From: Thiobacillus sp.
GTDB taxonomy: Bacteria > Pseudomonadota > Gammaproteobacteria > Burkholderiales > Thiobacillaceae
Assembly (NCBI GenBank): GCA_020724415.1
Contig: DYHB01000013.1
Span: forward strand, 1 to 39,445
DNA length: 39,445 bases
Reading direction: 5' to 3'
The notes beneath the pieces were generated by a model that was not told the DNA's origin, made no database searches, and was given only the letters and a program-made list of their open reading frames with translations. Positions 3,415-36,432 of this stretch are shown here, in pieces (the stretch's first letter is position 1; the number at the start of each line of letters is the position of its first letter). Both the position numbers and the translations under genes were made by a program.

Positions 3415-3995
3415 CCCGGCCCCATGCCCTGCTGGTGGTGGGCATCCACCGGGAGGAGCGGGCCTTTGGCGAGGCTGTGGCGGCCAGGCTGGACCGGACC
3501 CATCTGGATGTGCTGGTGGTGCCCGAGGGACTGTCCGGCAAACGTCCCCGGCAGGATCAGCGCTTTCACTTCGACCTCCTGCACAAGGCGCTCTATCGCC
3601 AGCTCACGGGTCACATGGAGGGGAAATACGCGCTGCTCATCGACCTGCACGCCGGTCAGGATGAGGCAGGCCTGGGCATGGAAATCTACAGCCGGGATGC
3701 CGAAGCACTCGGCCGAGGCCTGGCGGTGCACTACGATTTCACATCTCCACCCCTCCGACTGATTCGCCTGGGGCACAGGGTGGAGGGCAGTCAAGATGAC
3801 ATGCCTGCTGCCGCTGGCCAATCCGCCATACCCAGTGCGGCAACGCCCATTCCACGTGAGGTGTGGGACAACTTGGCCTTTCGCTACATCGGCCTGGAGG
3901 TCTTCCTGCCGCCGGCTGGGGGCGAAGATCCGGAACTGCTTGCCATCGTGGCCGGCTTGATCGAGCACATCGCCGCGATGGGCGAACACTGGTGA
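3411..3995 (+). CDS. Putative zinc hydrolase, M14/AstE-AspA-like fold
   Basis: A 194-residue protein whose ATG (3411) overlaps the TGA of the dmeF-like gene, so translation is probably coupled. Near the N-terminus LLVVGIHREERAFG resembles the zinc-binding HxxE motif of carboxypeptidase-like (M14) enzymes such as succinylglutamate desuccinylase and aspartoacylase (GxHxxE). About 60 residues later LLIDLHAGQDE resembles their third zinc ligand in DLH. The overall similarity is low and the protein is shorter than AstE or AspA, so substrate and activity are unknown. No signal peptide is visible, so it is likely cytoplasmic. Linkage with a metal exporter could mean a role in metal-ligand turnover, but that is speculation. 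An N-formylglutamate-amidohydrolase-like fold is an alternative. Confidence 0.6.
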   Translation: MTRPHALLVVGIHREERAFGEAVAARLDRTHLDVLVVPEGLSGKRPRQDQRFHFDLLHKALYRQLTGHMEGKYALLIDLHAGQDEAGLGMEIYSRDAEALGRGLAVHYDFTSPPLRLIRLGHRVEGSQDDMPAAAGQSAIPSAATPIPREVWDNLAFRYIGLEVFLPPAGGEDPELLAIVAGLIEHIAAMGEHW

Positions 3996-4026
3996 CAGGG
4001 GATACGCCCATGTTGCAATCAATAAT

Positions 4027-4045
4027 AAGAACGGTTATCATTATC
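4027..4045 (+). promoter_or_regulatory. Fur-box-like site upstream of tonB
   Basis: The 19 bases here match the classic Fur consensus at about 14 positions; the right half TATCATTATC is intact and the left half is weaker. It lies 264 bases upstream of the preferred tonB start. The site fits iron repression of the locus tonB to exbD. The remaining gene-free stretch (3996-4308) holds only this site, the hairpin at 4056-4075 and no recognisable gene. Confidence 0.65.
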
Positions 4046-4055
4046 GGATGTCGCG

Positions 4056-4075
4056 GATGTGCCTTGGAGCACATC
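4056..4075 (+). other. Stem-loop in the tonB leader
   Basis: GATGTGC and GCACATC form a perfect 7-bp stem around a 6-base loop (CTTGGA), 10 bases downstream of the Fur-like site. No T-run follows, so it is not a standard terminator. It may be a leader structure or a second operator half; function unknown. Confidence 0.4.
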
Positions 4076-4308
4076 AGGCACATTTCCTGACGTCAGCCAG
4101 CCGTTTAGCCAGCCAGCGTTTTTAGCCCTTACTGGATGCTGGCATGGTCTTTTCCCTGGACAGGTGGTTTTTGTTTGTGCGGCGCGCACCCATGGTGGCG
4201 TCCGGCGCAGCCGCATGTACGACAGACGCTGATTTCCCGTCCATCAAAAGTCACTCCGCGGCAGCCCTTCATGCCCTGAAGGCGCAACCCGCTTCGGTCA
4301 TCCTCCCC

Positions 4309-29961: not shown

Positions 29962-30924
29962 TCAGGCGGCCTTGACCGCCTTGATCTTGCGCGGGCGCAC
30001 CTGTCCCAGGAGCGTTGCCATGCGTGCCAGTCCCTGGGGGATATGGACCCCCAGGGGCATCGCTCCGATCCCCTCGATGGCCGTTTCGGCCTGGAGGGAG
30101 AAGTGACTGCCGACGAATACCGGAACCGGGGTGGCGCCCAGCAACCATTCGATCTCGGCGACCATGGAATCCGGCTCGCTCTGGGTCCTGCCCGCCAGCA
30201 CGATCGCCTGGGCGTGGGTTTTTTCGGCCACCAGGGGCAACTGCCGCAGAGGCAGGTTGGCACCCATGTAGACGACCCGGTGTCCCATGTGGAGTGTGCC
30301 CAGGGCAAACAGCAGCAGGCCGATCTCGTGGTGGTCATTCGGCAGGGTGGCCATCAGGATCGGCTTGCCCTTGGGCAGGCTGCTGGCATGGTGGAGCCTG
30401 GCGCCCAACTTGTTGCGCAGCCAGGCCGTAAAGAAGTGCTCCTCGGCGATGCCTGAAGGCCGTTCCTCCCATTGCCGGCCAATCTGTTCCAGGACCGGGA
30501 TGAGGAGATTCTGGGTCAGGAGATCAATGGGATAGATGGCGCAGGCCTCGTTATAGATGGCATCCAGCCGCTCGACACTGAAATCATCCAGGGCGCGCAG
30601 GGTTTCGTGGATGTATGCCTGCCAGCCGGCACCCCCGGGGGGCTGCGTGTCCGGGACGGGGATGGTCTCGGCGACATGACCTCCCGCCAGGTCTTCCTGC
30701 TCCAGGTGCAGCGCGATTTCGTTCAGGCCCAGACCTTGTACAAGTAATTCCTGTACGCGCCTCACTCTGTGTACATCCCGTTCACTGTACAGGCGGTGGC
30801 CGGAAGGCGCCCGGGCGGGACGGATCAGGCCGTGTCGGTGTTCCCAGGCACGCAGGGTGGAGGCGTTGACCCCGGTCCTGCGTACCAGCTCGCGCATGGG
30901 GAAGTGGGTTGTCTTGATCATCAT
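29962..30924 (-). CDS. MerR-family regulator with cobalamin-binding domain (CarH/LitR type)
   Basis: A 320-residue repressor-like protein. The N-terminal MerR helix-turn-helix (about 8-75) has MRELVRRTGVNASTLRAWEHRHGL and GHRLYSERD. A four-helix B12-cap segment carries W152 and, ten residues later, E162-H163, the same spacing as the W-E-H motif over adenosylcobalamin in CarH. The Rossmann-like domain has DHHEIG, giving a DxHxxG motif with H199 as the probable lower axial ligand, then GHRVVYMGANLP and GRTQSEPD. These residues make light-sensitive AdoCbl binding likely; light response itself is inference. The gene is divergent from the small ORF and mono-heme cytochrome, with TGTACA-type motifs in the shared promoter region and in its own 5' coding part. 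Confidence 0.88.
   Translation of the reverse strand: MMIKTTHFPMRELVRRTGVNASTLRAWEHRHGLIRPARAPSGHRLYSERDVHRVRRVQELLVQGLGLNEIALHLEQEDLAGGHVAETIPVPDTQPPGGAGWQAYIHETLRALDDFSVERLDAIYNEACAIYPIDLLTQNLLIPVLEQIGRQWEERPSGIAEEHFFTAWLRNKLGARLHHASSLPKGKPILMATLPNDHHEIGLLLFALGTLHMGHRVVYMGANLPLRQLPLVAEKTHAQAIVLAGRTQSEPDSMVAEIEWLLGATPVPVFVGSHFSLQAETAIEGIGAMPLGVHIPQGLARMATLLGQVRPRKIKAVKAA
30736..30792. promoter_or_regulatory. Cluster of TGTACA motifs inside the merR-type gene
   Basis: Within 57 bases four motifs occur: TTGTACAA (30736-30743), CTGTACG (30751-30757), TGTACA (30770-30775) and CTGTACAG (30785-30792), 15-18 bases apart. They use GTA valine, TTA, CTT and AGA codons, unusual beside the GTG/GTC/CTG-rich neighbours. 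They may be operators for the encoded regulator; alternatively the codons may simply be less adapted here. Confidence 0.4.
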
Positions 30925-31705: not shown

Positions 31706-32695
31706 TTACTCGAAGGGAGTCGGACGGGGCGTGGCGTTGGTGGAAGGCGGCAGGATGGGCAGCTTGAAGTCGGGCTGCTTGCCGGTCAGGGTCTTCAGGA
31801 AGGCGACGATGTCGGCGATCTCGGCCTTGCTGTACTCACGACCCAGTTGCAGCCGGCCCATGATGTCCACGGCCTCTTCCAAGGTCCAGACGGCGCCGTC
31901 GTGGAAGTAGGGGTAGGTCATTTCCACGTTGCGCAGGGTGGGCACCTTGAACTTCATGCGGTCGGCATCCTTGCCGGTCAGGCCGGCCACGCCTTCCACC
32001 TTGCTCTTGGTGTCATATTCGGCCACCAGGCCCATCTTCTGGAAGGACTGGCCGCCCATGGCCGGCCCATAGTGACAGGCGGTACAGCCGCTGTCCTTGA
32101 ACAGCTTGTAGCCGTTCACTTCCTGCTTGGTCATGGCCTTCTTGTTGCCTTTCAGCCACTGGTCGAAGCGGGAGTCGGGGGTGACCAGGGTTTCCTCGAA
32201 GGCGGCAATGGCGTCGGTGACCCGGTCGATGTTGATCTCGTTGGTGCCGAAGGCAGTCTTGAACATGGTGCCGTACTGGGGAATGGACTTCAGGACGTCC
32301 ACGGCCAGTTCATGGGTGAAGGCCATTTCGCCCGGGTTGGCGATGGGGCCGCCTGCCTGTTCTTTCAGGTCGGCGGCACGACCGTCCCAGAACTGGGCCA
32401 TGTTCATGCTGGAATTGAGCACGGTGGGCGCATTGATGGGGCCCTGTTGCCAGTTATGGCCGATGGAGGTGGACAGGTTGTCGGTGCCGCCCATGGACAG
32501 GTTGTGGCAGGAATTGCAAGAAATGAAACCGGATTTGGACAAGCGGGGATCGAAGTACAGGGCCTTGCCCAGCTCCACCAGCTTGGGGTTCTTGGGTTTG
32601 TGGGCCTTGATGGGTTCGATGGGCTCTGCGGCAATGCCCTGGGACATGGGGAGGGCGGCGACCAGCAGGGCGGCAAGCAGCGACTTGATCTTCAT
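31706..32695 (-). CDS. ccpA: Di-heme cytochrome c peroxidase
   Basis: A 329-residue periplasmic enzyme that reduces hydrogen peroxide to water with electrons from small cytochromes. A signal peptide (LLAALLVAALPMSQGIAA) is followed by a family-typical start, LGKALYFDPRLSKSG. The two heme sites are C60-H64 (CNSCH, low-potential peroxidatic heme) and C205-H209 (CTACH, high-potential heme). FWDGRAADLKEQAGGPI, NPGEMA with the conserved Glu, and PTLRNVEMTYPYFHDG with the distal ligand region are all present. The length is normal. MauG is the other family option but is less likely given the context. Upstream are an FNR-like box and an OxyR-type array, and the rubrerythrin operon is divergent. Confidence 0.95.
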   Translation of the reverse strand: MKIKSLLAALLVAALPMSQGIAAEPIEPIKAHKPKNPKLVELGKALYFDPRLSKSGFISCNSCHNLSMGGTDNLSTSIGHNWQQGPINAPTVLNSSMNMAQFWDGRAADLKEQAGGPIANPGEMAFTHELAVDVLKSIPQYGTMFKTAFGTNEINIDRVTDAIAAFEETLVTPDSRFDQWLKGNKKAMTKQEVNGYKLFKDSGCTACHYGPAMGGQSFQKMGLVAEYDTKSKVEGVAGLTGKDADRMKFKVPTLRNVEMTYPYFHDGAVWTLEEAVDIMGRLQLGREYSKAEIADIVAFLKTLTGKQPDFKLPILPPSTNATPRPTPFE

Positions 32696-32783
32696 GGTAG
32701 GACTCCTGGCAATTGGACAATGGATGACTGCACCGGGATGAGCGGGCTTAACAGTTATCCGGATGCGAGTATCCGTTTTTAAC

Positions 32784-32797
32784 TTGAGCTATATCAA
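32784..32797. promoter_or_regulatory. FNR/ANR-type box upstream of ccpA
   Basis: TTGAGCTATATCAA matches the FNR palindrome TTGAT-N4-ATCAA at 9 of 10 positions. It is 89-102 bases before the ccpA start, and ccp genes are commonly FNR-activated at low oxygen. It could also serve the divergent rubrerythrin operon. Confidence 0.65.
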
Positions 32798-32808
32798 TAA
32801 TGTAAAAG

Positions 32809-32857
32809 CTATCACCTCAATAGGGGTTTTCTATGGCGATGAATAGGTAATGTCTAT
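32809..32857. promoter_or_regulatory. OxyR-type operator array (five ATAG/CTAT elements)
   Basis: The elements are CTAT 32809, ATAG 32820, CTAT 32831, ATAG 32843 and CTAT 32854, each four bases exact. Spacers are 7, 7, 8 and 7 bases. The OxyR consensus is ATAG-N7-CTAT-N7-ATAG-N7-CTAT, so four elements give a full tetramer site with one extra base in the centre, and a fifth extends it. oxyR itself is the fourth gene downstream. The array lies 105 bases before rubrerythrin and 114 before ccpA. A TTGATA (32866-32871) just downstream could be the -35 box of rubrerythrin. Confidence 0.7.
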
Positions 32858-32890
32858 GGAAACGATTGATATATTTAACTACCGATTTTG

Positions 32891-32905
32891 ATAGACCGAA
32901 TCTAT
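32891..32905. promoter_or_regulatory. Additional ATAG-N7-CTAT pair before rubrerythrin
   Basis: ATAG (32891-32894) and CTAT (32902-32905) are spaced by exactly seven bases. This is half of an OxyR tetramer site and lies 57 bases before the rubrerythrin start, near a possible -10 region. Flanking elements are not conserved, so it may be an auxiliary contact or chance. Confidence 0.4.
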
Positions 32906-32961
32906 GCTTTGTCCAGCCTGGCAACCGCCAGGTGATTTTTCCATCTTGTTGGGAGACATCC

Positions 32962-33381
32962 ATGCAACTGAAAGGCTCCAAAACCGAGCAGCATCTGAAA
33001 GACGCCTTTGCCGGCGAATCCCAGGCCAACCGCCGCTATCTGTACTTCGCAGCCAAGGCCGACGTGGAAGGTTACAACGATGTGGCTGCCCTGTTCCGCT
33101 CCACGGCGGAAGGCGAGACCGGCCATGCCCACGGCCACCTGGAATACTTGGAGCAGTGCGGTGACCCGGCCACCGGCCTGCCGTTCGGTGCTACCTCCGA
33201 CAACCTGAAGACCGCCGTGGCCGGCGAGACCCACGAGTACACCGACATGTACCCGGGCATGGCCAAGGACGCCCGTGACGAAGGTTTCGACGAGATCGCC
33301 GACTGGTTCGAGACGCTGGCCAAGGCCGAGCGCTCCCACGCCAACCGTTACCAGAAGGCCCTGGACGAGCTGGCTGCCTGA
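32962..33381 (+). CDS. Rubrerythrin-family di-iron peroxidase without rubredoxin domain
   Basis: A 139-residue cytoplasmic di-iron protein that should reduce hydrogen peroxide. The ligands of the rubrerythrin centre are all present: E19, E52 and H55 (ExxH), E89, E92, E123 and H126 (ExxH). Classical rubrerythrin carries a C-terminal rubredoxin with CxxC motifs; it is absent here, so an external electron donor is needed. The next gene, a multi-cluster iron-sulfur protein, is a good candidate. The ATG at 32962 follows GGGAG by a few bases. An OxyR-type array lies upstream and two hairpins lie directly downstream. Confidence 0.9.
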
Positions 33382-33388
33382 TCCATTG

Positions 33389-33448
33389 CCCGGCGCCTGC
33401 GCCGGGTCTCAGGTGTACGTTTCAAGACCCTCGGTTGCGGGGGTCTTG
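33389..33448 (+). other. Two hairpins between rubrerythrin and the iron-sulfur gene
   Basis: CCCGGCGC/GCGCCGGG (33389-33406) is a tight GC hairpin 8 bases after the rubrerythrin stop. CAAGACCC/GGGTCTTG (33423-33430 with 33441-33448) is a second one. Neither is followed by a T-run. They may stabilise the rubrerythrin mRNA or reduce readthrough, so that the peroxidase is made in excess over its partners. Confidence 0.6.
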
Positions 33449-33503
33449 GGAAAGACACTTCGATACATCATTCCACACACCAATATCGCAAGGGGACTTG
33501 ACT

Positions 33504-34838
33504 ATGGCCACGCCCGTGAAAGAAGGCAATCTGGAGGCGCCCACCCGCCATGCACTGGACTGGCGCAATCCGGATTTCTACAACGAGGAATCCCTGTTCA
33601 AGGAAATGGAGCGCGTGTTCGACATCTGCCACGGGTGTCGTCGCTGCGTCAGCCTGTGCCAATCCTTTCCCACCCTGTTCGATCTGGTGGACGAATCCGA
33701 ATCCATGGAAGTGGACGGGGTCAAGAAGGCGGATTACTGGAAGGTGGTGGAACACTGCTACCTGTGTGACCTCTGCTACATGACCAAATGTCCCTACGTG
33801 CCGCCCCATGAATGGAACCTGGATTTCCCCCACCTGATGCTGCGGGCCAAGGCCTGGTACTTCAAGAACCGGGACACCAAGCTGCGCGACAAGGTGCTCA
33901 CCAGCACGGATACCGTGGGTCGCCTGGCCGGCATTCCCGTGGTGGCCCAGGTGGTCAATGGCGTCAATAAAATCGGACCTGCCCGCAAGGCCCTGGAAGC
34001 CGTGGCCGGCATCCACGCCGATGCCTGGTTGCCGGAATTCACCAGCAAGCCCCTGCGCAGTCGTCTGGGCCACCTGCCCGCCAACACGCCGGGCGAACCG
34101 GTGGGCCGGACCCGGGGCAAGGTGGCCTTGTTTGCCACCTGCTACATGAACCGCAATGAGCCCGGGCCCGGTGAGGACCTGGTGGCGGTGTTCGAGCACA
34201 ACGGCATTCCCGTGACCCTGGCCGAGAAGGAACGCTGCTGCGGCATGCCCAAGCTGGAACTGGGCGACCTGCAGTCCGTCCTGGAAGCCAAGGAGGCCAA
34301 CATCCCCGTGCTGGCCCGGATGGTGGACGAGGGCTGGGACCTGACCGCGCTCATTCCTTCCTGTGTCCTGATGTTCAAGCAGGAACTGCCCTTGATGTTT
34401 CCAGACGATCCCGACGTGCAGAAGGTCAAGAATGCCTTCTTCGACCCCTTCGAATACCTCATGTTGCGTCACAAGGAAGGCAAGCTGAAGACTGATTTCA
34501 AACAGAATCTTGGCAAGGTAGCCTACCATGTGGCCTGCCACCAGAGGGTCCAGAACATCGGTCCCAAGACCAAGGAACTGCTGTCCCTGATCCCGGGCAC
34601 CGAGGTGGATACCATAGAGCGCTGCTCGGGCCATGACGGTACCTACGCGGTGAAACAGGAGTTCCACCAGTACGCCATGAAGATCGTCAAGCCGGTGGTC
34701 AATCGCGTCAACCAGGCCAAGCCTGATCATTACGGCAGCGACTGCGCCATGGCTGGGCACCACATCAGCCATGCCCGGGGTGACGGTTCCGCGCCGGAAC
34801 ATCCCATGACCCTGATCCGGAAGGCCTATGGCCTGTGA
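33504..34838 (+). CDS. HdrD/GlpC-like iron-sulfur oxidoreductase subunit
   Basis: A 444-residue cytoplasmic protein. The N-terminal part has two [4Fe-4S] motifs: C42-C45-C48-C52 (CHGCRRCVSLC) and C85-C88-C91-C96 (CYLCDLCYMTKCP). Two CCG-type domains follow. The first has C213, C245-C246-G247 and C287; the second has C345, C374 (CSG, one Cys replaced by Ser) and C414. This is the architecture of HdrD and GlpC, but no flavoprotein dehydrogenase partner is nearby. Placed between rubrerythrin and DUF3501, it probably carries electrons to rubrerythrin; that is inference. The ATG at 33504 has AAGGGG about nine bases upstream. Confidence 0.85.
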   Translation: MATPVKEGNLEAPTRHALDWRNPDFYNEESLFKEMERVFDICHGCRRCVSLCQSFPTLFDLVDESESMEVDGVKKADYWKVVEHCYLCDLCYMTKCPYVPPHEWNLDFPHLMLRAKAWYFKNRDTKLRDKVLTSTDTVGRLAGIPVVAQVVNGVNKIGPARKALEAVAGIHADAWLPEFTSKPLRSRLGHLPANTPGEPVGRTRGKVALFATCYMNRNEPGPGEDLVAVFEHNGIPVTLAEKERCCGMPKLELGDLQSVLEAKEANIPVLARMVDEGWDLTALIPSCVLMFKQELPLMFPDDPDVQKVKNAFFDPFEYLMLRHKEGKLKTDFKQNLGKVAYHVACHQRVQNIGPKTKELLSLIPGTEVDTIERCSGHDGTYAVKQEFHQYAMKIVKPVVNRVNQAKPDHYGSDCAMAGHHISHARGDGSAPEHPMTLIRKAYGL

Positions 34839-34891: not shown

Positions 34892-35473
34892 ATGCCCGCT
34901 CTGACCCATGACACGCTCTACAGCCTGGAGCAATACGCCCGCATCCGCCCCGAGTTCCGCGCCCGGGTGATGGCGCACAAGAAGACCCGTCGCCTGGCCC
35001 TGGGCGATCATGCCGCCCTGTATTTCGAAGACGCCTTGACCATGCAATATCAGGTCCAGGAGATGCTGCGCCTGGAACGCATGTTCGAGCCTGAGCTGAT
35101 CCAGGAAGAACTGGACGTCTACAACCCGCTCATTCCCGATGGCAGCAACTGGAAGGCCACCTTCATGATCGAATATCCCGATGTGGAGGAGCGTCGCCAG
35201 GCCCTGGCCCGGCTGGTGGGGGTGGAGAACAGGGTGTGGCTCCAGGTGAAGGGCTTCGACAAGGTGTACCCCATCGCCAACGAAGACCTGGAGCGCAGTA
35301 CCGATGACAAGACTGCCTCGGTCCACTTCATGCGCTTCGAGCTGAGTCCTGCCATGTGTGGTGCGGTCAAGGAGGGCGCCACCCTCCTGGCCGGCATCGA
35401 CCACCCGGCCCTGAGTCTGGACCTGACGGTGCCCGAGGAGGTGCGCGCCTCCCTGGCGGCCGACCTGGCCTGA
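34892..35473 (+). CDS. DUF3501 family protein
   Basis: A 193-residue cytoplasmic protein of a family without known function. The ATG at 34892 is preferred because AGGA lies about eight bases upstream; a GTG at 34835 overlapping the previous stop would add 19 residues. Features that fit DUF3501 are YARIRPEFRARVMAHKKTRR, LYFEDALTMQYQVQEMLRLER, ELDVYNPLIPDGSNWKATFMIEYPD and TASVHFMRFEL. There is a single Cys and no cofactor motif. I know the family as a neighbour of rubrerythrin and GlpC-like proteins, so a shared role in peroxide reduction is plausible. Confidence 0.85.
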   Translation: MPALTHDTLYSLEQYARIRPEFRARVMAHKKTRRLALGDHAALYFEDALTMQYQVQEMLRLERMFEPELIQEELDVYNPLIPDGSNWKATFMIEYPDVEERRQALARLVGVENRVWLQVKGFDKVYPIANEDLERSTDDKTASVHFMRFELSPAMCGAVKEGATLLAGIDHPALSLDLTVPEEVRASLAADLA

Positions 35474-35487
35474 CTGAGGCGATCCGG

Positions 35488-36432
35488 ATGACCCTGACCG
35501 AACTCAAGTATGTCCTGGCCGTGGCCCGGGAACGCCACTTCGGCCGTGCCGCCGAGGCCTGCTACGTGGCCCAGCCCACCCTCTCCGTCGCCATCAAGAA
35601 GCTGGAAGAGGAACTGGGCGTGATGCTGTTCGAGCGGGGAGGCGGAGGCGAAGTCAGCATCACCCCCGCCGGAGAACGAGTGGTGGAGCAGTCCTCCCGG
35701 ATTTTCGAACTGGTGGACGGCATCAAGGACATGGCCATGGCGGCCAAGGATGAGTTGGCCGGGCCCTTGCGCCTGGGGGTCATCTACACCATCGCCCCCT
35801 ATCTCTTGCCCAGCCTCATACCCGAATTGCACCGTGCGGTTCCCCAGATGCCACTGCTGCTGGAAGAGAACTACACCCGGGTCCTGACCGAAAAGCTGCG
35901 CAAGGGCGAAATCGATGCCATGCTCATCGCCACCCCGGTGGAAGACCCCGGCTTGGTGGCCTTGCCCCTGTATGACGAACCGTTTCTGGTGGCCCTGCCG
36001 GCCGGCCACCCCTGGCGCAAGCGCAAAAGCGTCAAGAACGCTGATCTGGACAGTGAAAACATGTTGCTGCTGGGCAGCGGCCATTGTTTCCGGGACCAGG
36101 TACTGCAAGCCTGTCCGGCCCTGAACCGCACGGCCAGCGGAGGCCTGGCCAAGACCCTGGAAAGCTCGTCCCTGGAAACCATACGCCACATGGTGGCCAG
36201 CGGCGTGGGCATCACGGTGCTGCCCTGCACGGCCACGCGGATGAACAACATCGGGGATGATCTGCTGTCCTTGCGCCCGTTCGCGGACAAGCCGCCCTAC
36301 AGAACGGTATCCATCGCCTGGCGCAAGAGCTTTCCGCGCCCCCAGGCTATCGAGGCGGTTCGCCAGGGGGTGTTGGGCTCAGAACTGGGGTGCGTCCACA
36401 AATTCATGCCGGGCCAGCGCACCCCCGGCTGA
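35488..36432 (+). CDS. oxyR: Peroxide-sensing LysR-type regulator OxyR
   Basis: A 314-residue LysR-family activator. The N-terminal helix-turn-helix (HFGRAAEACYVAQPTLSVAIKKLEEELGV) is typical. The effector domain has the peroxide switch: C200 in GSGHC and C209, nine residues apart, as C199 and C208 in E. coli OxyR, with the intervening FRDQVLQA conserved. TLESSSLETIRHMVASGVGITVLP is the OxyR C-terminal core. Peroxide forms the disulfide and turns on antioxidant genes. It starts 14 bases after the DUF3501 stop, so it is likely co-transcribed from the rubrerythrin promoter, which holds an OxyR-type array; this would be positive autoregulation (inference). Confidence 0.95.
   Translation: MTLTELKYVLAVARERHFGRAAEACYVAQPTLSVAIKKLEEELGVMLFERGGGGEVSITPAGERVVEQSSRIFELVDGIKDMAMAAKDELAGPLRLGVIYTIAPYLLPSLIPELHRAVPQMPLLLEENYTRVLTEKLRKGEIDAMLIATPVEDPGLVALPLYDEPFLVALPAGHPWRKRKSVKNADLDSENMLLLGSGHCFRDQVLQACPALNRTASGGLAKTLESSSLETIRHMVASGVGITVLPCTATRMNNIGDDLLSLRPFADKPPYRTVSIAWRKSFPRPQAIEAVRQGVLGSELGCVHKFMPGQRTPG

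Follow-up and report, generated by a model that had tools for sequence, protein, structure and literature searches.

OxyR operators of Escherichia coli, such as that of oxyS, contain four ATAG elements (Toledano 1994, cited in PMC3953959 and PMC6416212), and the divergent E. coli genes ahpC and dsbG are served by two OxyR sites that lie between them (PMC6389858). These two genes are 371 bp apart, and by sequence the clear site is the one nearer dsbG. Cytochrome c peroxidase is under established OxyR control in E. coli (PMC8115020) and, as ccpA, in Shewanella (PMC6416212); E. coli yhjA (ccp) is regulated by both FNR and OxyR (Partridge 2007, cited in PMC4432559). ThnR, a LysR-type activator, has a primary site of its own at each of the divergent thnB and thnC promoters, with cooperation between them (PMC4834489). 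The aerobic-type rubrerythrin cluster rbr-RFO-DUF3501 is described in PMC5114695, whose main text uses none of the terms OxyR, PerR and regulator; no description of the regulation of this cluster was found in the literature examined.

The window analysed here, the whole 39,445-nucleotide stretch of a Thiobacillus sp. contig (DYHB01000013.1, positions 1 to 39,445), carries the same three genes, but differs from the published cluster in having oxyR as the fourth gene and an OxyR-type operator before rbr; ccpA is divergent from them (Table 1). We read the ccpA/rbr intergenic region as containing two putative OxyR operators placed head to head, one at 32843-32879 (+) for rbr and one running from 32834 to 32809 or 32798 (-) for ccpA, and put the probability of this reading at about 0.7. 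Each half alone is already known as a type; what would be new is the tight back-to-back packing with a ccpA-side site, and the compact double arrangement was not found described in the literature examined. With E. coli precedents both for OxyR plus FNR at ccp and for paired OxyR sites at ahpC/dsbG, the locus would be a compact variant of known biology.

As in E. coli oxyS, the rubrerythrin site has four half-elements with 7-bp spacers and 60 bp from operator start to -10; in Thiobacillus, however, the downstream pair is ATTG/TAAC (ATTG/CAAT in relatives) and two operators abut head to head. The likeness to ahpC/dsbG lies in two OxyR sites within one intergenic region serving divergent genes, whereas the Thiobacillus recognition dyads are only 8 bp apart in one phased run. 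With yhjA and Shewanella ccpA the locus would share a cytochrome c peroxidase under OxyR with FNR-type input (predicted here), but its FNR-like palindrome overlaps the -35 and its operator is joined to that of rubrerythrin. ThnR at thnB/thnC is likewise a LysR-type activator at two close divergent promoters and offers a precedent for cooperation, although regulator and ligand are different, the distance is longer and DNA looping is involved.

An oxyR gene in the rubrerythrin operon was part of the first-pass annotation, and the fourth cluster gene is indeed the only close OxyR of the genome, the next best copy being 29% identical. The cysteines of its GHC-x8-C motif, Cys200 and Cys209, correspond in alignment to the redox pair of solved OxyR (Cys199/Cys208). 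The protein has the PF00126 and PF03466 domains and scores 245 bits with the NCBIfam OxyR model, below the cut-off of 329. The gaps within the cluster are 122, 53 and 14 bp, so that rbr-RFO-DUF3501-oxyR is likely to be one transcript. A hairpin, GCCTGGCAACCGCCAGG then TGATTTTT (32916-32933), begins at the predicted rubrerythrin transcription start and may be a 5' stabilizing stem or a leader attenuator; a search of 32000-34000 against Rfam gave no match. A CarH-like MerR-type regulator with B12-binding domains, possibly light-responsive, is encoded at 29962-30924 (-), some 0.8 kb past the ccpA end.

Table 1. Genes and predicted regulatory features of the ccpA/rbr region (window coordinates).
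Feature	Position	Strand	Remarks
ccpA, di-heme cytochrome c peroxidase / MauG family	31706..32695	-	PF03150, E 5.8e-61
rbr, aerobic-type rubrerythrin without rubredoxin domain, 139 aa	32962..33381	+	PF02915, E 2.3e-29; neighbours as in PMC5114695
RFO-type Fe-S oxidoreductase, GlpC-like, CCG domain	33504..34838	+	NF008369, E 5.8e-65 (below curated cut-off); PF02754
DUF3501 protein	34892..35473	+	PF12007, E 5.2e-72
oxyR, LysR-type peroxide sensor	35488..36432	+	closest solved structure OxyR 4x6g, E 1.8e-106
ccpA-facing recognition dyad ATAG-N7-CTAT (elements 3, 2)	32820..32834	-	exact; 37 bp to -35, 61 bp to -10
Weak ccpA-facing activation half, ATAG (32812-32809) N7 ATTA	32798..32812	-	one exact element, the other with 3 mismatches
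8-bp junction between operators	32835..32842		midpoint of the two predicted promoters
ccpA promoter TTGATA-N18-GATACT	32768..32797	-	TTGATA 32797-32792, GATACT 32773-32768
FNR-like palindrome TTGATATAGCTCAA over ccpA -35	32797-32784	-	one mismatch to TTGAT-N4-ATCAA
Rubrerythrin recognition dyad ATAG-N7-CTAT (elements 4, 5)	32843..32857	+	exact dyad similarly placed in 25 non-identical rubrerythrin loci
Rubrerythrin activation half ATTG-N7-TAAC, degenerate	32865..32879	+	relatives: ATTG-N7-CAAT
Predicted rubrerythrin -10 TATGCT	32903..32908	+	60 bp from operator start; start site ~32915

The first-pass annotation had described five exact ATAG/CTAT elements with spacers of 7, 7, 8 and 7 bp and considered them very unlikely to have arisen by chance. 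The coordinates proved exact: CTAT at 32809-32812, ATAG at 32820-32823, CTAT at 32831-32834, ATAG at 32843-32846 and CTAT at 32854-32857, with the spacers in that order. The estimate of rarity is borne out as well. When the 266 bp between the ccpA start (32695, -) and the rubrerythrin start (32962, +) were shuffled 40,000 times with dinucleotides preserved, no alternating run with 7-8 bp spacers exceeded three elements; runs of three appeared 11 times, those of four or five never. A pattern search located the four-element core a single time in the 2.94-Mb genome; 3 of 369 genomes of the class and 4 of 399 genomes of the order contain it, the own genome being counted in each. ATAG-N7-CTAT dyads number 14 genome-wide, whereas the reversed control pattern occurs 5 times, and an 86-bp stretch of the ccpA/rbr intergenic region holds three of the 14.

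Several hits were discarded. An exact own-genome match (C36:8225) lies inside a coding sequence, the matches to the four-element core in G462 are a tandem repeat, and a four-element match with a 6-bp middle spacer (L152) directly precedes a LysR gene not identified as OxyR. The third intergenic dyad, at 32891-32905, is out of phase with the array and was rejected as an OxyR element: its CTAT is part of no array but the rubrerythrin -10 region, which relatives conserve at offset 59-62, and conservation does not extend to its ATAG. The phased series itself runs on past 32857, with ATTG at 32865 and TAAC at 32876, two elements absent from the first-pass list.

The comparison covered 151 loci encoding rubrerythrin relatives, which gave 143 non-identical upstream regions of 250 bp. 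With copies of the Thiobacillus locus excluded from the count, ATAG-Nk-CTAT was found in 26 of the 143 at k = 7 and in at most two at any other k from 0 to 24. Alignment on the dyad revealed conservation in columns that had played no part in locus choice, namely A22 T23 T24 G25, A28, A30, A31 and C33 A34 A35 T36 T37, followed by a TAnnnT -10 at columns 60-65; T23, A28 and C33 are present in all 26 aligned loci. The relatives' operator reads ATAG-N7-CTAT-N7-ATTG-N7-CAAT with T-N11-A in each half and, as far as sequence can tell, is a LysR-type pair of half-operators. On a matrix of 25 relatives' loci from which the Thiobacillus site was left out, 32843-32879 scores 32.1 (members 24-47), and the next-best scores in the window belong to other dyads or registers of the same region, except for one unrelated place at 5.3. 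Counted as strict ATAG/CTAT words, the site has two exact elements, one with 1 mismatch and one with 3 mismatches; the yardstick for its second pair was the consensus of the relatives, ATTG-N7-CAAT. Among the 25 relatives the best -10 offset ranges from 58 to 61 (mode 60), and TATGCT falls exactly at 60. The site thus adjoins the -35 region, with its recognition dyad centred near -65, as expected of an OxyR operator. Many Proteobacteria conserve this combination of operator and -10 at 60 bp ahead of rubrerythrin.

Two independent sites serve to calibrate the 60-bp operator geometry. Upstream of the genome's own ahpC (L211, identified as AhpC by TIGR03137 at a score below the curated cut-off, the contig ending inside the gene) lies ATAGctctttgCTATcaatcaaATTGcaacaagCAAT, i.e. 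ATAG-N7-CTAT-N7-ATTG-N7-CAAT, with TATAGT at offset 60. The E. coli K-12 oxyS elements are at -74, -63, -52 and -41 from the annotated 5' end, with GATAAT at offset 60. An oxyR gene is found within the flanks of 11 of 29 loci with an OxyR-type operator, a class defined by a score threshold, against 1 of 47 (Fisher p = 5e-5, kinship ignored). The conservation of the dyad and downstream half at relatives' rubrerythrin loci supports the first-pass proposal of an OxyR-type operator region, and the rubrerythrin side is an ordinary, widely conserved OxyR site at which binding is predicted.

The same comparison bears on how the five elements are to be divided. They had been proposed to form one site whose extra element and one-base shift could allow two overlapping registers, for example one for each divergent promoter or one each for oxidized and reduced OxyR, and a scan of relatives for the phased array had been suggested. 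Relatives keep elements 4-5 and the two degenerate elements downstream, and a phased element at -11/-12, -22/-23 or -33/-34 was present in none of the 25 rubrerythrin operators of the matrix relatives. Elements 1-3 are therefore not part of the rubrerythrin operator and a single five-element OxyR site is rejected; one register per divergent promoter survives as the best reading, in the form of two adjacent operators. A single tetramer on the central register 32820-32857, with an 8-bp middle spacer, serving or blocking both promoters, is highly improbable. No other stretch has four exact elements in frame, and some variation in spacing is tolerated by LysR-type proteins. However, the middle spacer is 8 and not 7, the distance to both promoters is wrong (the rbr -10 would be at 83 instead of 60), and conservation covers elements 4-5 followed by ATTG/CAAT rather than elements 2-5. 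For distinct oxidized and reduced OxyR registers, the analysis gave no support apart from the presence of this central four-element stretch.

Read on the minus strand from 32834, the remaining elements give ATAG-N7-CTAT-N7-ATAG-N7-ATTA, three of them exact. We take elements 1-3 to be a candidate mirror-image OxyR site facing ccpA, with the 8-bp spacer as the junction; this assignment is less certain than that of the rubrerythrin half. TTGATA/GATACT, the predicted ccpA promoter, is the only sigma-70-like promoter in the promoter scan, with a predicted start site at ~32761 (-), and TTGAC-N17/18-GATAyT is conserved upstream of family ccpA orthologs lacking the dyad. Because relatives without the dyad were used, the placement of this promoter is independent of elements 1-3. 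The two -10 boxes, which start at 32903 and 32773, lie at equal distances from 32838.

It is barely credible that the extra elements arose by chance in an AT-rich promoter region. The intergenic core is AT-rich, the out-of-phase dyad at 32891 demonstrates that extra ATAG/CTAT words do occur locally, and elements 1-3 are shared by no relative found; yet of 100,000 shuffles each, only 4 of the 147-bp ccpA side and 1 of the 68-bp core produced CTAT-ATAG-CTAT at 7-7 spacing, and elements 1-3 fall at the canonical distance from the ccpA promoter. Unlikely, too, is a different account, by which only 32843-32879 activates and elements 1-3 are an auxiliary site that loads or stabilizes OxyR at rbr or represses ccpA. 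It would explain the poor activation half on the ccpA side (ABS score -6.7, compared with 11.9 for the rubrerythrin site and 21.8 for ahpC) and the absence of the dyad from same-family ccpA orthologs, and ccpA already has a good -35/-10 plus the FNR-like palindrome. Against it stand the canonical activator distance of the dyad (37 bp to the ccpA -35 and 61 bp to its -10, compared with 37 and 60 bp at rbr), the OxyR arrays found at ccpA in other families, and the placement of ccp under OxyR in E. coli and Shewanella (PMC8115020, PMC6416212).

ccpA is probably also controlled by an FNR-type protein acting at the FNR-like palindrome, which overlaps the -35 rather than being at -41.5; a CRP/FNR-family gene is present in the genome, and seven family relatives have an FNR-like TTGA-N6-TCAA at or near the ccpA -35. 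A separate imperfect palindrome, GGATACTT(A/G)TATCTG at 32758-32775 (-), overlaps the ccpA -10, is conserved across the family (ccpA orthologs L156-L168) and is possibly the site of a repressor.

The ATAG-N7-CTAT dyad was found at no ccpA ortholog of the locus's own family, and no other genome was found to share the close ccpA-rbr gene order. With none of the 25 matrix relatives having phased upstream elements and no family ccpA having the dyad, the double arrangement rests on one genome. Among the 399 genomes of the order, the three others with four exact elements have them upstream of an oxyR (L226) or between ccpA (~70% identical) and a divergent oxyR (L227, L228). Arrays of four elements with 1-3 mismatches occur at the ccpA orthologs L230, L232 and L236. 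In L227, L228, L230 and L236, which belong to other families, the OxyR array is situated between divergent ccpA and oxyR, a classic LysR-type regulator-target pair, and the OxyR proteins of the ccpA/oxyR genomes in other families have the cysteine pair. The arrays in other families start 45-47 bp before the TTGAC box, ~9 bp further than the Thiobacillus site, and the -10 comes ~35 bp after the start of that box (by eye), a class II FNR layout; in both respects their geometry differs from that of the Thiobacillus site. In G107:C41 (L158) ccpA is divergent from a second rubrerythrin paralog, 39% identical and 287 bp away, and the ccpA-rubrerythrin pairing may thus have arisen more than once.

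From the computed elements, spacing, conservation and promoter geometry we infer binding, oxidation-dependent activation and co-occupancy at the two head-to-head operators. Each would have its strong recognition dyad, ATAG-N7-CTAT, on the inside and its weaker activation half outward, ending beside the -35 of its own promoter, so that the recognition dyads of the rbr and ccpA operators are 8 bp apart. Peroxide would oxidize OxyR, upon which one tetramer per operator would contact four successive major grooves, and the bound oxidized tetramers would recruit RNA polymerase at both promoters. The cytoplasmic peroxidase (rubrerythrin) and the periplasmic one (CcpA) would then be induced together, and OxyR itself should become more abundant, as its gene comes last in the rubrerythrin cluster. 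Two tetramers may not be able to fit simultaneously across the 8-bp gap. A switch among three registers, in which OxyR parks non-productively or represses at 32820-32857 and oxidation moves the tetramers outward to the rbr and ccpA registers, is quite unlikely; if true, one site would set the timing of both promoters. Two head-to-head operators would place a cytoplasmic and a periplasmic peroxidase under the same sensor in a compact form, and the analysis adds a sequence-level prediction of an OxyR operator for the aerobic-type rubrerythrin cluster.

Upstream of rubrerythrin, 89 of the 151 loci have a palindrome, TTAGA-N5-TCTAA (mostly TTAGACTTAGTCTAA, also TTAGAATTATTCTAA), for instance at -129 (L055), -130 (L056) and -93 (L096) from the start codon. 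It resembles a PerR/Fur box and appears to replace the OxyR operator: the two occur together in none of the 151 loci. No association of the palindrome with a nearby fur gene was detected (1 of 30 against 4 of 46). The pattern suggests an exchange of regulators at rubrerythrin, with OxyR and a PerR-like repressor taking each other's place, and such exclusivity at rubrerythrin promoters would be a clear case of regulator replacement. In Thiodiazotropha-type genomes (L040, at 3757-4270 on the minus strand; also L037 and L039) a Fur-like gene lies between ccpA and rubrerythrin, and the rubrerythrin promoter nonetheless has an OxyR-type operator.
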